From: Lentisphaerae bacterium GWF2_38_69 | GTDB taxonomy: Bacteria > Verrucomicrobiota > Lentisphaeria > Victivallales > GWF2-38-69 | Length of the DNA: 64,000 nucleotides | Direction: 5' to 3' | Assembly (NCBI GenBank): GCA_001803205.1 | Contig: MHBE01000040.1 | Location: forward strand, 62,001 to 126,000 | Part shown: in pieces, positions 21,395-45,392 of the stretch | How positions within the stretch are numbered: position 1 is the stretch's first letter | Layout of the letters: every line of letters starts with the position of its first letter | Translations under genes and position numbers: made by a program | The notes under the pieces: model-generated | Told to the model about the DNA's origin: nothing | The model's database searches: none | The model's input: only the letters and a program-made list of their open reading frames with translations

Positions 21395-21946
21395 CTATCT
21401 TTCAAAAGTTCCAGCATAGGTTGCTTTAGCTATTACATATGGTTTTAAAAATACCTCAATCTTATTATAATCCATGAAACTGCTTAGAGGCTGGATATTT
21501 TCCACACTTAAGGCATACACAGTAAATACATAAGTATGAACACCGCTTCCTGCCGGCGGCTGAGGTCCGCTATATCCTTTGACTCCAAAGCTGTTGAGCA
21601 ATTGGATAGAATTCTCAGGCATACCTTCGTCATCTGAGTCTCCCTGATCCAACATCGTCACAGAAGCAGGAATATTGCAGGCAAACCAATGTACCCAGTT
21701 ATTGGCTTTTGGCGCTGTATCAATGCAGACTAAAGCATATGACTTAACGCCACTGGGAGCATTATTCCAGAAGAACTGAGGTGAAATATTATTTCCGTCA
21801 ATTACTCCATAATTAGCATTCTTAGGCAAAATTCTTCCTCCATTATCAAAAGACAAAGAAGTCAAAGTGAAGTCTGCTGAAAAAGCATTAAATACTGCAA
21901 AGAAAAGAAAAATTCCAAAAACAAGAAACTTATAATTTTTTAACAT
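21395..21946 (-). CDS. YbhB/YbcL (PEBP) family protein, exported
   Basis: Signal peptide MLKNYKFLVFGIFLFFAVFNAFSA with RBS GGAGGG upstream; SPQFFWNNAPSGVKSYALVCIDTAP...WVHWFACNIP...YSGPQPPAGSGVHTYVFTVYAL. Confidence 0.9.
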   Translation of the reverse strand: MLKNYKFLVFGIFLFFAVFNAFSADFTLTSLSFDNGGRILPKNANYGVIDGNNISPQFFWNNAPSGVKSYALVCIDTAPKANNWVHWFACNIPASVTMLDQGDSDDEGMPENSIQLLNSFGVKGYSGPQPPAGSGVHTYVFTVYALSVENIQPLSSFMDYNKIEVFLKPYVIAKATYAGTFER

Positions 21947-23198
21947 TGTTAACCCTCCATGGTTTGAGTACTCTTTCCAAACATTTCTGTCCATGAATAT
22001 ATGATAGAAAAATACCATAATTTGTGTAAGGAATTCCTAAGTTTGATAAATCTCTCAGCCTTGCCGATATCTTCTGGGGACTTATCATACATCCTCCGCA
22101 ATGAATTATCAGTTTATAGCTGCTTAAGGCTTTATTTTCCTGAAATTCCCTACCGAAGTTATGCTCAATAATTACTCCCGGAACAAGCTTATTAAGAATT
22201 CCCGGTATCTGCGCTGTTCCTATGTCTTCTGCAATTCTGGAGTGGTTGCATGCTTCGACAATCAATATCTTGTCGCCTGTCTTAAGCTTTTTAACTACTT
22301 TTATTCCTTTAGCAAAATCGTTCAGTTTCCCACAAGACATGTAATTAATCATCATGATAGAAAATGTAGTAAGCTCAATATCTTCAGGAAGCAAATCCTT
22401 CACAATGTCCATTGCCTGTGAATCAGTTATCATCACCCTGGGGCGTTTGCTGAAACTTCCAAGGAAAGTTTCAAATCTCTTCTTCTCCTCTGTCTTGCCA
22501 GCCCTTATATTGCCTAAGTCCATTCTGTAGGAAACAGGGTATGCCCAGTGCCTTGTAATAAACTCTTCGCACATCTCCTGCGGTCTCAGGTAGCGCCCCT
22601 GTGGTGTTTCTTCATCCATAGGAATGTTCAAGATATAAAACTCATCTCTCCTGATAAACGGCAGGAGTTCTGTTTTTATATTTTTTGAAGAATACTTTTC
22701 AAGGATAAAACTTATCAGGCTCTGCCGGCATTTCGGATCATCTGCCGATATTGATAAACGCGGATAAAATTTTGTTAAAGGCAGTGTTTCTTCCAGATCA
22801 AGAATTTTCAGCGTATAATCTTTGCCGTGAAACGCGTTAAATATAATGAGGATCTGTTTATCCAGTTCTCTTGATTCCTCCAGAATCTCCTTTTCAGAGT
22901 TAAAATCTTTAGCCCTGGGGTCAATGATCAGGAGCACCAGATCACACTCTTTCAAACAAGAGAAAACCTTTACTTTTTTTTTGACTCCCAGTTCCCTGAT
23001 TTCGTCCGTCCCTGCTGTATCAAAAATTTTAACAGGCCCAAGTCCGTGAAGTTCCATGAGTGCAATTTTAGTATCGGCTGTAGTCCCAGGGGTAGAATCT
23101 ACTATGGATGTCTCGCTCTGGGTCAGCAAATTCATTACAGAACTCTTCCCTGCATTCATTCGCCCGAAGATTCCAATATTGTCACGATGAATAATCAT
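21930..23198 (-). CDS. hydF: [FeFe] hydrogenase H-cluster maturation GTPase HydF
   Basis: GTPase motifs GRMNAGKSS, DTAGTDE; C-terminal CNH-x46-HCGGC fits the CxHx(46-53)HCxxC HydF ligand motif. Confidence 0.88.
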   Translation of the reverse strand: MIIHRDNIGIFGRMNAGKSSVMNLLTQSETSIVDSTPGTTADTKIALMELHGLGPVKIFDTAGTDEIRELGVKKKVKVFSCLKECDLVLLIIDPRAKDFNSEKEILEESRELDKQILIIFNAFHGKDYTLKILDLEETLPLTKFYPRLSISADDPKCRQSLISFILEKYSSKNIKTELLPFIRRDEFYILNIPMDEETPQGRYLRPQEMCEEFITRHWAYPVSYRMDLGNIRAGKTEEKKRFETFLGSFSKRPRVMITDSQAMDIVKDLLPEDIELTTFSIMMINYMSCGKLNDFAKGIKVVKKLKTGDKILIVEACNHSRIAEDIGTAQIPGILNKLVPGVIIEHNFGREFQENKALSSYKLIIHCGGCMISPQKISARLRDLSNLGIPYTNYGIFLSYIHGQKCLERVLKPWRVNNVKKL

Positions 23199-23206
23199 AA
23201 AGAAAA

Positions 23207-25825
23207 CTATTTGCGCCTCAGTTCCATTATTTTCATTATCTGTTCAACTGGTTCTTCCACGCCTTCATCTACCTGAATAACAATCAAATCGTCCTTCTGG
23301 ACTATTTCAAGCGCGTTATCTATCGCTTTATGATAATCATTTATTATCTTTATATTTTCCGGATTGAATCCTGCCTGAATCATTCCTTTTTGTACAACTA
23401 GAGGTGTAGCTCCGCTCTCTCTGCCTCTTGGATCGGGATCGCCGATAATCACATAATCATAAGTTCTGGAAAGAACTGCTCCCAGCTCCATAAGAACTTC
23501 ATCTTTTCTGCTGCCTGTTCCGTGAGAAACACCTATTTTTCGCCCATCTGGTGAAATCTTTTTTAGCATTGCGCCAAGAGCTTCAATAGCAGGCTTGTTA
23601 TGCCCGTAATCAAGGATGACTTTGAATGTGCCGAAATCAAGCATATTCATTCTTCCCGGATTCTGCTGTACTGATGGGAAAAATGTGGTTATTCCTGACC
23701 TGATTAGATGATTAGGCAGCTTAAGTCCATGCAGAGCCGCCACAGCGGCAAGAGTATTGGCTACATTAAAATCAGCCGCACCTCCAAAGGTAATAGGCAC
23801 TTCGTAAACTGAAGCTATAATCGAATCGATATTATTAGCGCCGTTTCTTATCACGATATTTTTATTCGAGACTGTTACCGCTGTATTTCCTTCCTCAAGA
23901 TGAGTCTTTATATACGGATTATTCTCATCAAGTGAAAAAAGTACTACATTCCCTTTAGCTCTTCTATAAAAGTCCATGACAAGGTCATCCTGGGCATTGA
24001 GTACTGCCGTGCCGTCGGGTTTAACCACTTCAACTACCGCAGCTTTGACAAATGCCAAATCCTCAACCGTGTCCACAAAATCATTGCCTATATGATCATC
24101 AGCGACATTGAGAAATATGCCTACATCGCACTTATCATACGCAAGACCTCTTCTTACTATGGCTCCTCGCGCGGTTTCCAGCACTGCATGATCAATAGTT
24201 GGCTCACGAAGCACCATCTCATGCCCCGACGGACCGGAATAATCCCCCATGGCTATCGGAAGCCCATCTATCTCCACTCCTGTAGTTGTTGCCAATCCTA
24301 CCTTATGTCCTGCGTATTTGAGGGAGTGCGTTATAAGCTTGCAAGTCGTGGTTTTTCCATTAGTTCCGGTAACTGCTATTAATGGCATAGCCGACTTTGT
24401 TCCTTCTGGAAATAACATGTCTATTATTGGTTTTGCAGCATTACGGGGTTTCCCGAAACTCGGTTTTAAGTGCATTCTCAAACCAGGAGTGGCGTTTACT
24501 TCCACTATTCCGCATCTCTGGGAAGATATCGGCTTGCTTATGTCACTGCAGAGAAAGTCAATACCAATCACATCGAGCCCTATTATTTTAGCAGTTCTTT
24601 CTGCCATAAAACGGATTTCCGGGTAAACCTCGTCAGTTACATCTGACGCAGTCCCTCCCAGGCTTAAATTAGCCGTAGTTTTCAAGTAAACTTTTCTGCC
24701 TTTTTCTAAAACAGTCGATGTATTGAGGTTTAACTTTTCAAGCAGCTGTTCTGTCATTTCGTCAATTGTTATTTTCGTAAGCACATTTTCGTGACCATAA
24801 CCTCTTAGCGGATCTGAATTTACTGTATTTATCAGTTCCTTTATGGTTGATTTGCCATCGCCGGTTACAAAAGGCAGCTGCCTGTGCGAGGCAGCAGTGA
24901 AAATTCCGTTAACTACAAGCAATCGGTAATCATTTCCTTCAATATAACTTTCTACCAGTATTTCCGAACAAACTTTCCTGGCCAGGTAATAGGCAGATTC
25001 AAGTGTTTCTTCATTTTTTATATTAACTGTTACTCCCCTGCCGTGATTTCCTCTTTCAGGTTTGATAACAACCGGATAGCCAATGGCTGAGGCTGCATCA
25101 AGCGCATCTTCCAGAGTAGAGACTTTTTCTCCGTCTGGCACAGGAATACAGGCATTTTTCAGAAGCTCTTTCGTCCTGGATTTTTCTCCGGCTATTTCAG
25201 CGGCAAGAGCAGATGTTTCTGAGGTCATGCTTGCCTGTATCTTTTTCTGGTATTTCCCATAGCCTAACTGAACAAAACTCTGGTCGTTCAAACGCACATA
25301 TGGAATTCCACGAACTGCGGCTTCATCAATTAAAGCCTGTGTAGTTGGGCCAAGCTTACCTTCTTCCCGCAGCTTTTTAAGTTTCTGAATTATTTTATAA
25401 AGATTTATTTCAACGCCGTCAATACAGTCTTCTACAATATCCAGAGCCGCTTTTGCAGCTTCCAGCCCTACTTTTTCTACAATATAATTGACGATTATTA
25501 TGGATTGTCCCGGAAGTCTGGTCTCAATCGTCCTGCTAAATTTTACATCAAGCCCGGCAAGCGTCTGAAGTTCCCAAACTACATTCTCTACGATATGGGC
25601 AATAGTGGTTCCTTTTCGGAGAAGTTCAGTAAAAAATATGCCCTTTGCTGTCTGGTGATTTAATAACCCTGGCATTAACTCAAGCAGCCTTTCAGATAAA
25701 CCAGGGAAGGATGCTGAAGATTTTTTCTCTTCATTCAAACCAATCAACATTAATATGGATTTGCGCAGGCTATACCTGTTAGCCCCCCTCAAAGCTCTTA
25801 CTTCAAGAAGTTTTATGAAACTCAT
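23207..25825 (-). CDS. cphA: Cyanophycin synthetase
   Basis: 872 aa; ATP-grasp GYPVVIKPERGNHGRGVTVNI plus Mur-ligase-like GTNGKTTTCKLITHSL; NPGRMNMLDFGTFKVILDYGHNKPA. Confidence 0.93.
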   Translation of the reverse strand: MSFIKLLEVRALRGANRYSLRKSILMLIGLNEEKKSSASFPGLSERLLELMPGLLNHQTAKGIFFTELLRKGTTIAHIVENVVWELQTLAGLDVKFSRTIETRLPGQSIIIVNYIVEKVGLEAAKAALDIVEDCIDGVEINLYKIIQKLKKLREEGKLGPTTQALIDEAAVRGIPYVRLNDQSFVQLGYGKYQKKIQASMTSETSALAAEIAGEKSRTKELLKNACIPVPDGEKVSTLEDALDAASAIGYPVVIKPERGNHGRGVTVNIKNEETLESAYYLARKVCSEILVESYIEGNDYRLLVVNGIFTAASHRQLPFVTGDGKSTIKELINTVNSDPLRGYGHENVLTKITIDEMTEQLLEKLNLNTSTVLEKGRKVYLKTTANLSLGGTASDVTDEVYPEIRFMAERTAKIIGLDVIGIDFLCSDISKPISSQRCGIVEVNATPGLRMHLKPSFGKPRNAAKPIIDMLFPEGTKSAMPLIAVTGTNGKTTTCKLITHSLKYAGHKVGLATTTGVEIDGLPIAMGDYSGPSGHEMVLREPTIDHAVLETARGAIVRRGLAYDKCDVGIFLNVADDHIGNDFVDTVEDLAFVKAAVVEVVKPDGTAVLNAQDDLVMDFYRRAKGNVVLFSLDENNPYIKTHLEEGNTAVTVSNKNIVIRNGANNIDSIIASVYEVPITFGGAADFNVANTLAAVAALHGLKLPNHLIRSGITTFFPSVQQNPGRMNMLDFGTFKVILDYGHNKPAIEALGAMLKKISPDGRKIGVSHGTGSRKDEVLMELGAVLSRTYDYVIIGDPDPRGRESGATPLVVQKGMIQAGFNPENIKIINDYHKAIDNALEIVQKDDLIVIQVDEGVEEPVEQIMKIMELRRK

Positions 25826-31408: not shown

Positions 31409-33694
31409 ATGTCTGCAGTTTCTTATTATAAAAACCTGTCACTCAGCAAAAAAATATATATATCTACATGCATCGGTCTTTTTCTTGGAATGTTCTTTGG
31501 AGACAGATGCGACATACTTCAACCATTTAACACTCTATTTATAAAGATATTTCAGATCGCGATCATACCTTATATGATCTTCACAATAATACAGTCCATA
31601 GGCTCCATGACTACAGCGAATGCTAAGCTTATAGGAAAAAGAGGAGGAGTTATACTTGTTGCTTTGTGGGCTATCAGTATATTTTTTGCTTTTGGACTTC
31701 AATATTCTTTCCCCGATATATCAAGAGCAAAGTTTTTCCGCTCCCTGGATATACCCAAAAGTACAGACGGCACTTTATTTGATTTGTTTATTCCGTCTAA
31801 TCCATTTTATGCCGTATCGCATGGTTTAGTCCCAGCTATAGTGATATTCTGCATTTTAGTAGGGATGGCGCTTATTCATGAAAAGCGTAAAGACATTGTA
31901 GTGCAGTTTGCAGAAGTTTTCGCTTCAATCATGAAAAGGGTTAACGATTATATTATGCTGTTATTGCCTTTAGGTGTGCTGATTATGTCTACTTATACAT
32001 TTGGCACTTTGAGCTTTGTAAAATTAAAAGGCGTTCTTCTCTATATTATTGCTTCAATCTTTTATATTATATTTATTTCAATGTTTGTTTATCCAGGGAT
32101 TCTTTCAAGTTTAAGCAAGATTAGTTACAGGAAATTTCTTCATTATACAATACCGGCAGCGTTAATAGCGTTTACGACAGGAAGCGTATTCCTTGCATTA
32201 CCGGTCATATACAATCTGATGCATAAGTTCAACGAAGAAGAGAGAAGCCTTCATGACCACGGAATCATAAATACTGAAAATGGGCGTCATTTGATAAGCA
32301 TCCTTGTCCCATTAGCCTGGATTGTACCAGCAAGTTACAAGTTCCTGATTATTTTTTTTATTGTCTTTGAGCAATGGTACTACAATTGTTCCGTTAATTT
32401 CTTTGAGAAAGTTATGTATTACATATGCGGGATTCCCTGCCTATTCGGAAACAACTCAGTTACTGTGCCTTTTCTTCTGGAAATAACTAACCTTCCTGCA
32501 GAAGCTTACAATATCTTTATGATGGTTTCTAATTTTATGGTTTATTTCAATAATGCCAATGGAGCTATTTTTATCGTTGTATCTACTATTCTGTGCTATT
32601 TGTCAATAACTGGCAGCCTGAAATTAAACCTGTCAAAACTTATCTTTATATTTGCTTCCTCCATAATTTTCTTTAGTGTTGTCGTGACAGAAGTAAGTTT
32701 TGTGATGGATAAATTCTTATCCGGAGATGAGGAAGCAAAAAAAGAACTTTCTAATATGGTTACACGGGCACGCATGGATAACTGGTTCTTCAAAATTAAT
32801 GCAGAATATCTAAAATTGAGCGAATATCATCACATACCTTCTCTTAATTCTAGTGAGTCCTTGCTGGATAAAATCGATAGAACAGACATTCTTCAGGTGG
32901 GGTACAATCCAGATTCGGCTCCTCTGTGTTTTTTCAATGCTAAAAATGAACTGGTTGGCTACGATATAGATTTTATATATCTGATAGCTCAAGAACTTGG
33001 TTGCACCAAGATTGAATTCTACCCTATTGACAGTGCCACAGTGTATCAAAATTGTCTTGACAAGGGAATACAAATAGCTATCTGTGTAGGTGGTTACACC
33101 TACCGTTCTGCATCAGGCAGTAGTGTAGTTGCCTCAGATCCTTATCTAAGAACTACCCCTGCTGTAATAATTCCTAATAAATACAAGAACAGTTACCCTG
33201 ACTATGAATCTGTTGACAACGATGCTTCAGGATTAACAATCGGCATTCTGTACAAAACTATATTATCTTTAAAATCAAAAGAGCTATCTGAAGATATAAA
33301 AGCAAATAATGTAGTTTTATTAGAAAGCATTGATGACTACTATATAAATAAAAAATGTGATGCATTATTCATATGGGGAGAATTAGGTGCAGCTATCAAC
33401 ATTGTCCATCCTGGATATCAGATTTATTATCCAACTAAAAACCTGGAAGATCTTGAGTATTTCGATTTATTTCTTTCTTATCTTCTGCCTTACGACGATA
33501 ATTCAACAACTTTCCGGGATTGTGTTAATTCCTGGATCACGGCATGGTACAGATATGGAATACAAAAAGAAAGATATAAATACTGGATACTGGGAAAAAC
33601 AGGCATAAAGACATCTGAACCCTGGTCAATACTTGACTGGCTTATGGAGCATAATTATTTTCTCATTAATTTACAGCCTGACCTATTACTTTAG
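31409..33694 (+). CDS. DAACS/SDF-family symporter fused to a C-terminal SBP_bac_3-type solute-binding domain
   Basis: Residues ~1-430 polytopic (LSLSKKIYISTCIGLFLGMFFGD...); extra TM LIFIFASSIIFFSVVVTEVSFVM; then DILQVGYNPDSAPLCFFNAKNELVGYDIDFIYLIAQELG typical of amino-acid-type binding proteins. Confidence 0.8.
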   Translation: MSAVSYYKNLSLSKKIYISTCIGLFLGMFFGDRCDILQPFNTLFIKIFQIAIIPYMIFTIIQSIGSMTTANAKLIGKRGGVILVALWAISIFFAFGLQYSFPDISRAKFFRSLDIPKSTDGTLFDLFIPSNPFYAVSHGLVPAIVIFCILVGMALIHEKRKDIVVQFAEVFASIMKRVNDYIMLLLPLGVLIMSTYTFGTLSFVKLKGVLLYIIASIFYIIFISMFVYPGILSSLSKISYRKFLHYTIPAALIAFTTGSVFLALPVIYNLMHKFNEEERSLHDHGIINTENGRHLISILVPLAWIVPASYKFLIIFFIVFEQWYYNCSVNFFEKVMYYICGIPCLFGNNSVTVPFLLEITNLPAEAYNIFMMVSNFMVYFNNANGAIFIVVSTILCYLSITGSLKLNLSKLIFIFASSIIFFSVVVTEVSFVMDKFLSGDEEAKKELSNMVTRARMDNWFFKINAEYLKLSEYHHIPSLNSSESLLDKIDRTDILQVGYNPDSAPLCFFNAKNELVGYDIDFIYLIAQELGCTKIEFYPIDSATVYQNCLDKGIQIAICVGGYTYRSASGSSVVASDPYLRTTPAVIIPNKYKNSYPDYESVDNDASGLTIGILYKTILSLKSKELSEDIKANNVVLLESIDDYYINKKCDALFIWGELGAAINIVHPGYQIYYPTKNLEDLEYFDLFLSYLLPYDDNSTTFRDCVNSWITAWYRYGIQKERYKYWILGKTGIKTSEPWSILDWLMEHNYFLINLQPDLLL

Positions 33695-35948: not shown

Positions 35949-38048
35949 ATGAGTAGTAAAATTAGAGTCATTGTTTCACTTGCGTTAGTCATTATATGCG
36001 GCTTTACATTCAATTCCTCTCTCTCTGCAGCTAATAAGGAAGCTGAATATACTTTAATCGTCTATTTGAATGGCTGTGATTTGGAAAACGGAATTGATTC
36101 TGACAGAATTAATAAAAAAACTAATCCAAAGGGACTTAAGGCTGGAGCTACAAACGATGTTTTGAATGAATTGCGAGAATCATCTTTTGATGACAGAAAA
36201 CTTAATGTTATTGTCATTACAGGCGGCACTAATGAATGGCTGCAGAAAGAACCGGCTATTAGCACTACACAATGTCAAGCCTGGAGGATATACGGCCCTG
36301 ATAAAAATAAGTTTATGGAAAAGGTCAAAGAAACTCCTCCTTCCATGTACATGATGGACAAAAAGACTCTCTCTGATTATATCTCATGGGCAATCGATAA
36401 ATATCCAGCTAAAAAATATGCATTGTTTCTGTGGGGCCACGGAGGTGGACCAATAGGAGGGTTCGGAGTAGACCAACTAAATAAGGACAAGAGTATCAGT
36501 ATTTCAGATATGCAGGAAGCCCTTAAAAAAGCTTTAAAAGGAAAGCAATTCGATCTTATAGCATTTATAGCCTGCCTCATGGGAAACTTTGAGACGGCTT
36601 ACAAGCTTAAAGATTGCGGCAAGTACATGGTTGCCTCAGAGGAACTCGAATTTGACGATTGCTTTGAAGGAATCATTAAGGGTCTTAGTGAAAGACCTAA
36701 CATTTCTGGCAAGGATTTGGGTAAGTTATTTATTGACGCACATTTTAATAAGGTTCAAAAATGGCTCAATAAAAAAGAACGGGAAAACCTATATACATTC
36801 TCTGTGATAGATTTAGCTAAGATATCAGATGTTAAGAATAAATGGGATAATTTGATTCAGAAGCTGGAAGAAAGAATGAAGAGCAAGAACAAATCTACCG
36901 TTCGCGATACTTACCGTTTCCTGGCTATAGCAAGAGGATATTCCGAATCATATAATGAATATACAAGATCTGGCTCCGGACTTACCGACTTGTATGAATT
37001 TTCGAATTTTATTTCTCTTTTATGTAATATTAACACTGATGAATTGCAAAGAGCCATAAAGGACTGCGTCATATATAATAAAGTATGCGAATACAGGTCT
37101 GCCTCTCATGGCCTTTCCGTATTTTTTGTAGATAGAAAACTAGAGTATAACTTGGGGACAGACAGTGACTTAATAAAATATGAACCTCAAGCTCCATCAA
37201 AGCTGTATTCTAATTTTATTTCTCGTTACTACAATACACTCTTTGTTCAAAACCCATCAAAACTCATAGGAGAAATAAGCTTTATTAAAGTACCTATAAA
37301 AAACCAAAACCCTAAATCCTATCCTCCTGTTTATTTTGTTGATATCGATCCTGGCAGCTCGGGAGATTTTTTGCTGGTTAATCAAATATTTTTTGTGATA
37401 GGCAAACTTGAAGTATCCGGATCTAATAAAGTGTTCAAAACACTATGCATTGATAAGGATGTCAATAATGATCTTAGTAAATTAAGTATAAAATTTACAG
37501 GGAACCAATACTGTATCGGAGGGAAACCTATTGCCATATATTGGGACGGAAATGTAGAAAGGTGGAAAAACCCGAAATACATTCCTATAGGTTCGTTTGC
37601 TGTAAAACATAAAGGAAAAATGAAATTCCTGGTTGTCACTGAAACAAAACCAAATGTCGTCAAGATAATTGACACATTTGACGGCGACTACTCACCGAGT
37701 GGCAAAGTAATTATGCCTAATGGTTTTGATGTAGGAAATCCTGATAACCTTGCTGAAATTAAAAAAGATCCAACAATAACCATACTGTATAAAGTTGATG
37801 GTAATTATGTCGATGGCCCTGAAGTGAAACTTAAAATTTCTAAATTAGAAGATGGTGTTGAATACTTGGAAATTTCTAAATCCAGCTTAGAAGATGGTGA
37901 ATACTGCGGAGCTTTTTATATCGAGGATGTAATTGGCCGCGGGACATGGTCTTTCCAAAAAACTTTCAACATTAAGAGTTCCAAGGAAATAAAAACTTCG
38001 GAAGCTCAAGGCAGTAATGTTCCAATGACCGTAAATCAGTCATTATAA
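35949..38048 (+). CDS. Exported clostripain-family (C11) cysteine peptidase
   Basis: YTLIVYLNGCDLE; catalytic His/Cys motifs YALFLWGHGGG and LIAFIACLMGNFETAY. Confidence 0.9.
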   Translation: MSSKIRVIVSLALVIICGFTFNSSLSAANKEAEYTLIVYLNGCDLENGIDSDRINKKTNPKGLKAGATNDVLNELRESSFDDRKLNVIVITGGTNEWLQKEPAISTTQCQAWRIYGPDKNKFMEKVKETPPSMYMMDKKTLSDYISWAIDKYPAKKYALFLWGHGGGPIGGFGVDQLNKDKSISISDMQEALKKALKGKQFDLIAFIACLMGNFETAYKLKDCGKYMVASEELEFDDCFEGIIKGLSERPNISGKDLGKLFIDAHFNKVQKWLNKKERENLYTFSVIDLAKISDVKNKWDNLIQKLEERMKSKNKSTVRDTYRFLAIARGYSESYNEYTRSGSGLTDLYEFSNFISLLCNINTDELQRAIKDCVIYNKVCEYRSASHGLSVFFVDRKLEYNLGTDSDLIKYEPQAPSKLYSNFISRYYNTLFVQNPSKLIGEISFIKVPIKNQNPKSYPPVYFVDIDPGSSGDFLLVNQIFFVIGKLEVSGSNKVFKTLCIDKDVNNDLSKLSIKFTGNQYCIGGKPIAIYWDGNVERWKNPKYIPIGSFAVKHKGKMKFLVVTETKPNVVKIIDTFDGDYSPSGKVIMPNGFDVGNPDNLAEIKKDPTITILYKVDGNYVDGPEVKLKISKLEDGVEYLEISKSSLEDGEYCGAFYIEDVIGRGTWSFQKTFNIKSSKEIKTSEAQGSNVPMTVNQSL

Positions 38049-38051
38049 GAT

Positions 38052-38087
38052 AAAGGGCAGTTGACGCATGTCGGCCAACTGCCCTTT
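38052..38087 (+). terminator. Strong stem-loop terminator after the clostripain gene
   Basis: AAAGGGCAGTTG / CAACTGCCCTTT perfect 12-bp inverted repeat, 12-nt loop. Confidence 0.75.
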
Positions 38088-38157
38088 GTTTGGTTCAGCA
38101 TATAACCTGGAAAATAAAAAACTCAAATGAAAAACAAATAAGTCGAAAGTAATAAAT

Positions 38158-39543
38158 ATGAAGGTAAAGATAAGTTTATTAATTGTTTCGTTTTTTGTGT
38201 TATTTAGTGCTTCATATGTTCATGCTATCGCAAAAGAAGATTTTAACTATGCAATAGTTGTAAAAGAAAAAACATATAATGATTCTGACTGGAAAGAAGT
38301 TGTCAAAGTATTATCAGAGAAGTATCCGAGCACGCATATTTTTACCTATAAAAAATCTTTAGATGAACTTGTTAAAAATGTAACTTCATTTTCTCCTGAC
38401 TATCTAGCAGTTGTTTCAAAGCCTGAAGATGCAGATCCTAAATTCATAAAAGCTGTTAATCAGTTCAACAGAAAACTAGGCACAGCACCGTACGGAAAGG
38501 CTGTTCTGGGGATTGTTACAGGTCTGACTGCTGAAGATGCATTAAGGATAGCCGAAAACAAACAAAAACTTGAAATAAATTTTGGCCTTGGCGGTATGTT
38601 GAAATTTATTGATTCCTTACCAACAGGAATTGCTTATTGTGAATTTTATGAAGAAAAGGAAAACTGGCAGGCAAAAGCCCCTGATACGGATATAGAAAAT
38701 TTTACAGACGCGCCTGATGATCATCTACCTGATATGGTTGAGTTAATAAATAATGATAATATTGACGGAATATGGACCAGCGGCCACGCTACCCCAAGCG
38801 GATGGCTTGCTTATTATCCCGATGGACCATCAGGCATTAATGCTGATGACGGCAATTTAATTGGATATGCCGGAGAAGAAACATACCCCATAAAATCAGT
38901 TAATCCCAAAATATATCTCGGTATTGGTAATTGCTTGACTGCTTGTATTGAAGATAAAGACAATGCTTATTCCCTTGCATGGATTCATTCCGGAGGAGTA
39001 GATCAGTTTTTCGGATATACTGTGGAAAGTTATTATGGCATGATGGGTTGGGGAATGGCTGATTACTTTTTTTACAGGGGTGGAGACTTCACGCTAGCCG
39101 AAAGTGTTTTTATCATTAACCAGGCATTGATTATGTCCATGGAAAACGACTTGGCAGGAGATGAAATAGATGATATGGCCTACGATAAGGATGTTTGCAT
39201 AGTTTATGGAGACCCTGCATGGGATGCGAGAGTTCCTGCATCTTCTGCAAAAGAAACCGCAGATTATGAATATTCCTTAACAAATAAAAAAACAGATGAA
39301 GGCAAAACTCTTTGGACATTAAAAGTAACATTTAATAAAGATATGAATTTCATTCCTGAGAGTCCAAAAGATATCCGCCCTATCTTTGCATTTCTTTCTG
39401 AAAAGGTTAACTCTCCGGAAGCAGCAGGAGATTTATCGGCTGTCGGTGTCTGGCATGTCAGCGATAACTTTGTCATAGTTAATTTTAAAGGTGAAGTTAA
39501 GGCAGGAGATACAAGAGTTTTCAAATTTACTACCACTAATTGA
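38158..39543 (+). CDS. Exported protein, possible clan-CD (caspase/gingipain-like fold) peptidase
   Basis: Signal peptide; candidate His motif GIWTSGHATPSGW and Cys motif YLGIGNCLTACI about 55 residues apart. Confidence 0.5.
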   Translation: MKVKISLLIVSFFVLFSASYVHAIAKEDFNYAIVVKEKTYNDSDWKEVVKVLSEKYPSTHIFTYKKSLDELVKNVTSFSPDYLAVVSKPEDADPKFIKAVNQFNRKLGTAPYGKAVLGIVTGLTAEDALRIAENKQKLEINFGLGGMLKFIDSLPTGIAYCEFYEEKENWQAKAPDTDIENFTDAPDDHLPDMVELINNDNIDGIWTSGHATPSGWLAYYPDGPSGINADDGNLIGYAGEETYPIKSVNPKIYLGIGNCLTACIEDKDNAYSLAWIHSGGVDQFFGYTVESYYGMMGWGMADYFFYRGGDFTLAESVFIINQALIMSMENDLAGDEIDDMAYDKDVCIVYGDPAWDARVPASSAKETADYEYSLTNKKTDEGKTLWTLKVTFNKDMNFIPESPKDIRPIFAFLSEKVNSPEAAGDLSAVGVWHVSDNFVIVNFKGEVKAGDTRVFKFTTTN

Positions 39544-39614: not shown

Positions 39615-40541
39615 ATGAAAAATTTTCTATATATTTTCTGTGCTTTAATATTTATAATTTCCTTAACAGGATGTGGAAAAGAAGATGCTGCACAGAAGAC
39701 TGCTGATACAAAAATTAACAAAGGAAAACTTACGACAAGAGCCAGAGCAGGAGAAAATAAAGTTTATGAGCAGTTCTCAAATGTGGAGCTCTTTCCCGAT
39801 ATTCAGAAAATTATAACTAGAGGAACTCTTAATATCGGAATATATCAGGATTGCAGTGTTCCCTTCCTCACAAAGGATTCAGACGGTAAAATAACAGGAG
39901 GGCTTGACATGGAGATAACTGGTTTTTTAGCTAACCATTTGGGAGTAAAACCTGTATATGATTATAACATAAAGAGCCGAAATGAGCTCTTCAGAAAGCT
40001 TCACACTGGAGAAATAGATATAGCAGCAGGAGAACTCAGCCATACATTTGACAGAGGTAAGTATGTTTATTTCTCCAATACTTATGTGCAATTACAGCAA
40101 TCTTTAATTATGAACAAAAAAGATGTTGTTGAACTAGGCATAAGATATAATCCTTATAAATACTTAAGCGAAAATACCTGTAAAATCGGAGTTCAGGCAG
40201 AATCAGCATATATTGAATATGCTCAGAATCTTTTTCCGAAAGCGGATGTTTATGAATATCCTTCATTGCAGGATGCAATGGACGCTCTAACCAGAAATGA
40301 AATAATTGCCATACTACATGATGACAATGAAACAGTGTTGCTTGCAAGAAAACATTCCGAAATAGCTCTGAATTATACTGTGTATGTATTAACAAATAAG
40401 AAAGACAATATTTCTATTGCGATCTCGCCCAAAAGTCCGAATCTTTGTGATACTGTTAATCTTTATTTGGAATCTGATGATTTGTTGTTTGATGTCAATG
40501 ATCTAATAGAGAGATATCCTGATGCCTATAAATGCGAATAA
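39615..40541 (+). CDS. Solute-binding lipoprotein, SBP_bac_3 (amino-acid-type) family
   Basis: Lipobox SLTGCGK; RGTLNIGIYQDCSVPFLTKDSDGKITGGLDMEITGFLANHLGV. Confidence 0.85.
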   Translation: MKNFLYIFCALIFIISLTGCGKEDAAQKTADTKINKGKLTTRARAGENKVYEQFSNVELFPDIQKIITRGTLNIGIYQDCSVPFLTKDSDGKITGGLDMEITGFLANHLGVKPVYDYNIKSRNELFRKLHTGEIDIAAGELSHTFDRGKYVYFSNTYVQLQQSLIMNKKDVVELGIRYNPYKYLSENTCKIGVQAESAYIEYAQNLFPKADVYEYPSLQDAMDALTRNEIIAILHDDNETVLLARKHSEIALNYTVYVLTNKKDNISIAISPKSPNLCDTVNLYLESDDLLFDVNDLIERYPDAYKCE

Positions 40542-40552
40542 AGAGGATCTGA

Positions 40553-41902
40553 ATGGAAAGGATTAAACATATTCTAGGCAGTTTTTGGACAATTATCTTC
40601 TCTCTCTTTTTGGGAGTTGTAATAGGCATTTACGCACCAGGGATCGCTACAGTCTGCGAACCGTTTGGAGATATATATTTCAAACTAATCGAAATGGCCT
40701 GTACCATTATGCTTCCCATCATCATAATCTCAAGTATAGGAAAAATCGTAATATCTGAAGGCAGTTCAGGATTTGTGTACAAAATATTAATTGCGCTTTT
40801 CATTACTTTTGCCACTATTTCCGGAATTAGTATTTTATCTTCTATTATTGTATCTCCCATTACTGCTCCAACTTCTGAGACGACAAAAAACTTAGGAAAA
40901 CTTATAATAAACAGTCAGGAAAAAAACCAAGATGAACCAGTCGATGTATTAAAAAGTTATTATTTCATAAGAGAACTAGATACAGAAAAGGAAGTGCAGA
41001 AAAAGGACACTGGAATATTAAAAATTATAGCTGACTTTTTCCCTAACAACATATTTGAATCTTTAGCTAATAAAAAAACTGTTGAAGTCTTAATCTTTTC
41101 AATTATTTTCGGGTTGCTCTTTAAATATATCCCCCAGCTTACATGTAATTCAATAATCAATTTATGTGACAGCCTTTTTGAAGCTTTCAATACTTTTCTT
41201 ACAATCCTTTTGTACCTCCTGCCGTTTGGAATTATTTCTCTAATATCTCATCAAACAACCGGGCTGGATTTCAGCGTATTATTTTCTCTCATTAAGCTTG
41301 GGGAAAGAATAGCTTTGGTCTTTATTGTCATATTCATAATTTGTTTATTAGTAATAAAATATAACTCAAGAAAATCTTTTGTTGAAATCTTTAAGGCTCT
41401 CAAGGAGCCAATGGTTCTTTCCTTCGTCGCAGAAAACCTTGTAGCTATGCCTTCTCTGATAACAGCTATGACGGAAAAACTTAATTTTAACAGAAACAAA
41501 GTAGGCTCTACTGCACCTCTATGGATGGGCATGGAAATTCATGCGGATATCGCATTGTTTGCCGCAGCATCAATTTTCACCTTGCAGTTATATGGTATTC
41601 CTTTAGGTTTTAATGAGATAATGATAATTTTTGTAGGGTCTATTGCTGCAGGTTTGTCTTCACTTGGAGCTGCCGCAGTGCTGTGGGTAGCCTTGATAAG
41701 AATAATATTAGACCCCCTGGATATCCCCTCTTCTCCTATAATTCTTGCATTAATGCTTTTTGAACCCTTTTTTAACGGTCTTCTTTACCTCTTGAATGCA
41801 GTGATAAGCTGCGCTGCAGTCTCAATATTGGCAAGAGAACAGAAACCAAAAGAAAAGGCATCTTTGGATAAAGAAGAAATTGCTGTGCCGTTGAAATATT
41901 AG
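40553..41902 (+). CDS. DAACS/SDF-family symporter-like protein
   Basis: Polytopic; ILGSFWTIIFSLFLGVVIGIYAPGIATVCEPFGDIYFKLIEMACTIMLPIIIISSIGKIV typical SDF N-terminus; 11-bp gap to the binding protein. Confidence 0.8.
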   Translation: MERIKHILGSFWTIIFSLFLGVVIGIYAPGIATVCEPFGDIYFKLIEMACTIMLPIIIISSIGKIVISEGSSGFVYKILIALFITFATISGISILSSIIVSPITAPTSETTKNLGKLIINSQEKNQDEPVDVLKSYYFIRELDTEKEVQKKDTGILKIIADFFPNNIFESLANKKTVEVLIFSIIFGLLFKYIPQLTCNSIINLCDSLFEAFNTFLTILLYLLPFGIISLISHQTTGLDFSVLFSLIKLGERIALVFIVIFIICLLVIKYNSRKSFVEIFKALKEPMVLSFVAENLVAMPSLITAMTEKLNFNRNKVGSTAPLWMGMEIHADIALFAAASIFTLQLYGIPLGFNEIMIIFVGSIAAGLSSLGAAAVLWVALIRIILDPLDIPSSPIILALMLFEPFFNGLLYLLNAVISCAAVSILAREQKPKEKASLDKEEIAVPLKY

Positions 41903-44402: not shown

Positions 44403-44738
44403 ATGGAAGTAAGAGCAGTTACAAAGTATGCGAAAATTGCTCCTGACAAAGCCAGGCAGGTTGCTAGGCTTCTTCAGGGCAAAAGCGCTATCAAGGCTCA
44501 AAGCGAAGTTGACCTCATGCCGAGGAAGGCTGCCCGTCTTTTTGCCAAGACATTGCGTTCAGCAGTAGCAAATGCTGAAAACAACCATGACCTGGACAAG
44601 AACAGTCTGGTCGTAAAAGAGGCAGTTGTCGGAATAGCTCCCATCATGAGGCGCTTTAGACCGAAAGCTAGAGGAATGGCTGGAAGAATCCGCAAGAGAA
44701 CCAGTCACCTGACAGTTGTAGTTTCAAATGAAAAATAA
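44403..44738 (+). CDS. rplV: 50S ribosomal protein L22
   Basis: AVTKYAKIAPDKARQVARLLQGKS; operon position. Confidence 0.95.
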   Translation: MEVRAVTKYAKIAPDKARQVARLLQGKSAIKAQSEVDLMPRKAARLFAKTLRSAVANAENNHDLDKNSLVVKEAVVGIAPIMRRFRPKARGMAGRIRKRTSHLTVVVSNEK

Positions 44739-44753
44739 CGAAAGGAAGTTATC

Positions 44754-45392
44754 GTGGGACAAAAAGTAAATCCAATCGGCTTTAGAGTCACGACCACAAA
44801 AGACTGGGATTCGAAATGGTTCGCCAGAAAGTCCACTTTCGGCTTATGGCTTAACGAAGATCTTAAGATTCGTGATTATATAAAGAAAGAATTCGTTCAT
44901 GCTGCAATAGCAAGAGTTGTCATTCACAGAGCTTCAAACAGAATAGCTGTTGATATCTATACCGCCCGCCCGGGCATTCTGGCAAGCAGAAAAGGAGATT
45001 TCGAAAAACTCCAGACAGGTTTGCAAAAAATGGCTCATGGGCACGAGATAAAAATAGACATTCATGAAGTTAAAAATCCTGAAAGAAACGCTCAGCTTGT
45101 TTCAGAAAGCGTAGCTCTCCAGCTTCAGAGAAGAATTGCCTTTAGGCGCGCAATGAAAAAATCTATCCAGCTGGCTATGGACAGCGGCGCACTGGGAATC
45201 AAGATAATGGCTTCCGGCCGTCTGGGCGGAGCTGAACTTGCAAGAACAGAGCATTATAAAGAAGGCACAGTGCCTCTTCACACTATCAAAGCCAATATCG
45301 AATACGGTTTTTCAGAAGCTATGACTCCTACCGGAAAGATCGGCGTGAAAGTCTGGATCTGCAACCCTGAAGTAGTAAGCAAGGAGGCCTAA
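44754..45392 (+). CDS. rpsC: 30S ribosomal protein S3
   Basis: [26 protein letters not shown] start. Confidence 0.97.

Follow-up and report, generated by a model that had tools for sequence, protein, structure and literature searches.

An SDF-fold membrane domain fused to a predicted external binding domain in Lentisphaerae bacterium GWF2_38_69, with relatives across bacterial phyla

A two-domain membrane protein and its surroundings

We analyzed a 64,000-nucleotide stretch of the Lentisphaerae bacterium GWF2_38_69 genome (contig MHBE01000040.1, positions 62,001 to 126,000; hereafter the window, to which coordinates refer unless another contig is named). An intact open reading frame on its forward strand encodes a protein in which an SDF domain is followed by an additional transmembrane helix and an SBP_bac_3-type domain, laid out as follows.

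31409..33694, +, fused SDF-TM9-SBP_bac_3 gene, intact ORF, 761 aa
31442..32539, +, SDF domain, Pfam stretch aa 12-377 (Pfam; Foldseek to GltTk/GltPh)
31667..31669, +, W87 in TM3, at the Na3-site Ser/Thr column of GltPh/GltTk (alignment)
32126..32251, +, HP1-like hairpin, aa 240-281, tip T257-G258-S259 (alignment, AlphaFold2)
32324..32341, +, TM7 unwound segment V306-P-A-S-Y-K311, replacing NMDGT (alignment, AlphaFold2)
32399..32485, +, HP2-like hairpin, aa 331-359, about 6 residues shorter than in GltTk/DctA (alignment, AlphaFold2)
32501..32611, +, TM8, aa 365-401, without equivalents of GltPh D390, D394, R397, N401, and D405 (alignment, AlphaFold2)
32630..32716, +, extra ninth TM helix, aa 408-436, predicted in-to-out (AlphaFold2, charge/hydrophobicity)
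32861..33589, +, SBP_bac_3-type domain, aa 485-727, predicted outside (Pfam, AlphaFold2, Foldseek)
33380..33382, +, E658, near-invariant Glu in the second SBP lobe (79 of 84 proteins; family-specific)
33590..33691, +, C-terminal extension, aa 728-761, with a conserved W739-S; low model confidence (alignment, AlphaFold2)

A Pfam scan of the protein returned SDF (PF00375; aa 12-377, E 4.3e-37, 128.5 bits against a cut-off of 27.9) and SBP_bac_3 (PF00497; aa 495-727, E 4.4e-13, 49.6 bits against a cut-off of 26.4), and no domain besides these two. An AlphaFold2 monomer prediction built on an alignment of 49 relatives (pLDDT 84.6, pTM 0.80) reproduced in the first half the order of SDF helices, including a broken TM7 and a pair of hairpins, and placed a separate helix between the last SDF helix and an alpha/beta domain beginning near residue 485. 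Foldseek matched the SDF half to GltTk and GltPh (best target-normalised TM 0.64, to 6xwn), and together with the model this identified an elevator fold comprising HP1, the broken TM7, HP2, and TM8. The C-terminal half matched type-II amino-acid SBPs (TM 0.82 to AncCDT-1, 5t0w) and has their two-lobed periplasmic binding fold. An earlier note, made from the sequence alone, had proposed an SDF-like part, an extra hydrophobic helix, and an SBP_bac_3-like domain, in that order; the HMM scan, model, and structural search bear out both domain identities, and the model contains the helix. That note had further called the binding domain amino-acid-type, which is correct for the fold and fails for the ligand residues, as the columns that hold the ligand Arg and Asp in amino-acid SBPs are occupied by S569 and W656. 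With the Arg and Asp absent, the window copy is unlikely to hold its ligand as a standard amino acid is held, and ligand binding by the domain is itself putative. The ligand Arg column is Arg in 54 of 75 wider relatives.

Canonical SDF carriers have both their N- and C-terminus in the cytoplasm, such that one added helix would carry whatever follows it to the outside. The TM9 region (aa 404-440) is a hydrophobic stretch in 85/85 relatives, among which the TM8-TM9 loop averages 2.9 Lys/Arg to 0.15 Asp/Glu; beyond TM9 the chain turns net acidic (means of 2.1 Lys/Arg and 2.8 Asp/Glu). From charge and helix count we infer that the SBP domain sits outside the membrane, tethered by TM9, in agreement with the placement first proposed; a cytoplasmic SBP domain is rejected on the same two grounds.

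By reading, the fused gene has a divergent helix-turn-helix gene on one side and a topoisomerase I-like gene on the other. Across the clades of its relatives we found no conserved operon partner or output gene, and recurrent neighbors are clade-local. In two genomes only (L023 and L031), RND efflux-type genes adjoin the fused gene on one or both sides, and in four Desulfobacterales (L042, L043, L047, and L051) a gene that reads as PqiB/MlaD-type follows it at a distance of about 1.3 kb. Elsewhere in the window, 35949-39543 encodes a clostripain-family peptidase (PF03415) and, after it, a secreted protein that has no Pfam match and reads as another caspase-fold peptidase, with a TPR protein upstream of both. 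At 23207-25825 and 21930-23198 (-), a cyanophycin-synthetase-like protein adjoins the gene for the HydF hydrogenase maturase. At 44403-45392, two genes that by reading encode ribosomal proteins L22 and S3 begin directly after unrelated secreted-protein genes, and the S10 operon thus appears from its gene order to be interrupted upstream of rplV.

Loss of ion and substrate residues in the SDF half

We aligned 85 fused proteins with GltTk and with the canonical SDF protein of the same genome, and read the seven columns corresponding to GltPh N310, D312, D390, D394, R397, N401, and D405. None of the seven residues is retained in 72 of the fused proteins, including that of the window, and the other 13 retain one or two; the canonical SDF of the same genome and one from Flammeovirga each have six. 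Sequence signatures of Na+ and H+ coupling in SDF carriers have been described, the latter consisting of a hydrophobic residue at 92, L311, and N405 (PMC12668577). The Na+ signature was present in 0/85 fused proteins, and likewise 0/85 combine L311 with N405, the two positions at which the H+ signature was read. Where canonical proteins have NMDGT, the fused family carries P-x-x-G-K (P in 82/85, G in 68/85, and K in 62/85), the TM3 Na3-site column is Trp in 71/85, and HP2 is shorter by about 6 residues. The TM7 break (306-308) and the tips of HP1 (258-259) and HP2 (346-348) in the model coincide with the aligned NMDGT and hairpin tips, which argues against a misaligned motif.

With the coupling residues gone, a canonical DAACS symporter bearing an accessory domain is ruled out. 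The original description of the carrier as DAACS-type therefore does not extend to a working DAACS carrier, since the Na+/H+ and substrate residues are missing throughout the fused family. As judged from the alignment, the window protein is a member of the SDF fold that fails the family's functional residues, for which reason the name DAACS symporter does not suit it.

The SDF half is nonetheless the better conserved of the two. Pairwise identity was higher in the SDF half than in the SBP half for every one of the 36 pairs in a close set (means of 57% vs 41%) and for 2293 of the 2485 pairs in a wider set, and two tandem copies from the same genome are 73% identical in the SDF half and 49% in the SBP half, which indicates stronger constraint on the membrane half. 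Divergent SBP domains on a constrained SDF half would fit a common carrier with changing ligands.

Distribution of fused proteins and unfused gene pairs

One degenerate-pattern scan, which covered a single genome per species and was followed by tblastn confirmation, recovered relatives at 75 loci in at least nine phyla, most of them full-length. Their hosts belong to Lentisphaerota, Kiritimatiellota, Verrucomicrobiota, Chlamydiota, Planctomycetota, Desulfobacterales, Pseudomonadota (Halieaceae, Legionella, and others), Acidobacteriota, Gemmatimonadota, and Bacteroidota (Flammeovirga), with further relatives on contigs binned as cyanobacterial. A shared layout of two domains that recurs at 75 loci in many phyla lies far beyond chance; the fusion is no one-off. 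Within the phylum of the window's genome, about 19 of 388 sampled genomes gave a strong match. The fused protein of Legionella sp. PC1000 (L110), on a long branch, clusters with those of two Chlamydiota (L090 and L099) and not with other Pseudomonadota, which suggests horizontal transfer.

The window's genome (G000) encodes nine intact fused copies, two remnants, and one canonical SDF gene. Eight of the intact copies form one clade with the single copy of a sister genome (G001), which is the window gene's partner in the tree. The tandem pair (contig C62:5780-10351; L021) directly follows an ABC permease/ATPase-like pair, and a third, broken copy lies on the same contig (C62:17343-18095). A second contig carries both a remnant with an internal TGA (C17:27532-28476; L028) and an intact, very divergent copy, about 21% identical, that falls outside the main paralogue clade (C17:3183-5366; L027).

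Six kilobases downstream of the fused gene, the window contains an SBP and an SDF protein encoded by adjacent, separate genes.

39615..40541, +, unfused SBP_bac_3 protein, 308 aa, with a lipobox-like N-terminus (LTGC)
40553..41902, +, stand-alone SDF protein, 449 aa, with MEIHA replacing NMDGT, 11 bp after the SBP gene

Adjacent pairs of this kind occur at five loci in four genomes (the window's genome, G001, G341 twice, and G440), with the gene order of the G440 pair opposite to that in the window. An SBP predicted outside the membrane and joined to, or encoded with, an SDF carrier is found both in the fusions, where topology was read from charge and hydrophobicity, and in these split pairs. 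We judged the motif status of stand-alone SDFs from aligned columns. NMDGT is lacking in all five paired proteins, which have MEIHA, MEIHA, MNRHA, IGRFC, and LGKFA in its place, while an N-x-x-G core is present in 34 of 36 other stand-alone SDFs and the remaining two have GQNG with most TM8 residues still in place. That SDF site loss and SBP linkage go together, whether fused or unfused, is suggestive, the unfused side consisting of five phylogenetically non-independent loci of one class that were picked by similarity. The unfused pairs lend independent support to the idea, raised at the outset, of a binding-protein-dependent transporter, transport itself being predicted. In five Flammeovirga species (L058, L060, L061, L063, and L070), a canonical SDF gene with the motif lies immediately upstream of a fused gene without it.

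Candidate functions and relation to known systems

Taken together, these features make it somewhat probable that the protein is a self-contained, SBP-dependent transporter that uses the SDF elevator fold of GltPh and DctA, with non-canonical coupling. The SBP domain, held outside by TM9, would capture a small ligand of polar or anionic character and present it to the membrane domain, which would carry it across; high-affinity recognition would thereby have shifted from carrier to SBP, and the carrier's Na+/aspartate residues would have given way to the family motif of TM7 P-x-x-G-K, TM3 Trp, and a shortened HP2. Speculatively, the TM7 Lys, at the GltPh T314 column, might take over the role of a cation or interact with an anionic ligand. 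Two-gene versions, with an SBP lipoprotein and a separate SDF protein, would work alike. The lack of any other conserved neighbor is what is expected of a one-gene system. A membrane site stripped of charge has a parallel in the TRAP transporter SiaQM, where it is without the conserved charged residue, an Arg, that the SBP carries (PMC9352664). Transport, passage of the ligand from SBP to SDF domain, and any ion coupling are steps that we infer, and loss of all known coupling residues could equally mean loss of transport.

That loss is also what favors a sensor or transceptor, an option the earlier note had raised, in which the SDF half does not transport and ligand binding by the SBP reshapes the trimer and signals to a cytoplasmic partner. 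A precedent exists in E. coli DctA, which is reported to serve as a co-sensor of DcuS. We nevertheless regard this explanation as unlikely. No positive evidence for it emerged: the fused protein has no cytoplasmic output domain and, across clades, no conserved partner gene nearby. Moreover, the sensor helix of DctA, H8b, follows TM8, where the fused family has TM9, and deeply conserved hairpins with a new membrane-core motif exceed the needs of an anchor.

Less probable still is a ligand-gated channel or leak in which the SBP gates an ion path, as the SBP-type domains of ionotropic glutamate receptors do. It would account for an SBP joined to a pore-capable fold and for the conserved Lys in the core, and some of the SBP domains weakly resemble Lig_chan-Glu_bd, below the cut-off. 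SDF/SLC1 proteins carry an anion conductance, but to our knowledge this is documented in SLC1 for canonical members only, and no channel-specific feature was seen.

Profile comparison of the SBP half with the PDB gave cyclohexadienyl dehydratases, extant or ancestral, as the best matches, and the column of their general acid, Glu173, is one residue away from the near-invariant E658; this could point to a periplasmic enzyme whose product the SDF half imports. However, the Glu173 column is L659 in the window protein, leaving a dehydratase unsupported, and AncCDT-1, an equally good match, is an arginine binder; we consider such an enzyme highly improbable. Last, a relic, in the sense of a canonical symporter in decay to which an SBP was fused by accident, might explain the two broken copies in the genome, but it is already disfavored, and barely credible, in view of the nine intact copies there, the shared layout and new motif in at least nine phyla, and the strong constraint on the SDF half.

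The fused protein shares its fold, helix order, HP1/HP2, and TM7 break with SDF/DAACS carriers (PF00375, TC 2.A.23: GltPh, GltTk, DctA, GltP, and SLC1), from which it differs in having lost the Na+/H+/substrate residues, shortened HP2, and gained TM9 and an external SBP. The best structural and sequence match of its SDF half is Anc-Int, an ancestral aspartate transporter uncoupled from Na+ (9bgy/9bgz; PMC12668577), which, unlike the fused family, retains NMDGT and the TM8 D/R/N/D residues and has no SBP. In its presumed manner of working it compares with TRAP/TTT systems, which likewise pair an SBP with an elevator-type carrier without ATP; their membrane proteins are nevertheless unrelated to SDF, those of TRAP being VcINDY-like with a Q domain, and TRAP/TTT SBPs are of the DctP/TAXI type, as opposed to a covalently attached SBP_bac_3. 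No DctP/TAXI or DctQ/DctM domain was returned by the Pfam scan. In ABC importers of the GlnPQ/OpuA type, an SBP_bac_3-type domain is tethered to a membrane partner, as it is here. A solved glutamine permease/SBP chain (6h30) is among the SBP-half profile matches. The fused family, however, has no ATPase and its membrane half is SDF rather than an ABC permease. The C-terminal domain resembles amino-acid SBPs and cyclohexadienyl dehydratases (AncCDT, ArgBP) in fold and profile, with the difference that the window copy has neither the ligand Arg and Asp nor a residue aligned to the dehydratase general acid.

Each domain belongs to a textbook family. No study of an SDF-SBP fusion appeared in the open-access literature searched, a limited collection in which absence is weak evidence. 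As a wider and more tentative proposal, which we hold with less confidence than the transporter itself, the family could form a further class of SBP-dependent secondary transporters beside TRAP/TTT, one that would have given up its own Na+ and substrate sites on gaining an SBP, as fusions and as pairs, and acquired new coupling around the TM7 lysine.

Should these proteins prove to transport, the fold shared by GltPh and the human glutamate transporters, which is understood better than any other among secondary transporters, would have become SBP-dependent independently, and would have done so while all of its known ion sites were lost. They would then offer a natural experiment, in a fold with many solved structures, that separates what ion coupling contributes from what high-affinity binding contributes. 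Annotation of the family is generic: a related plasmid-borne RefSeq gene is named "cation:dicarboxylase symporter family transporter", and the proteins so labeled in many genomes would then probably be misnamed as to function. The fused relatives found in many bacterial phyla may represent an unstudied class of binding-protein-dependent transporter.
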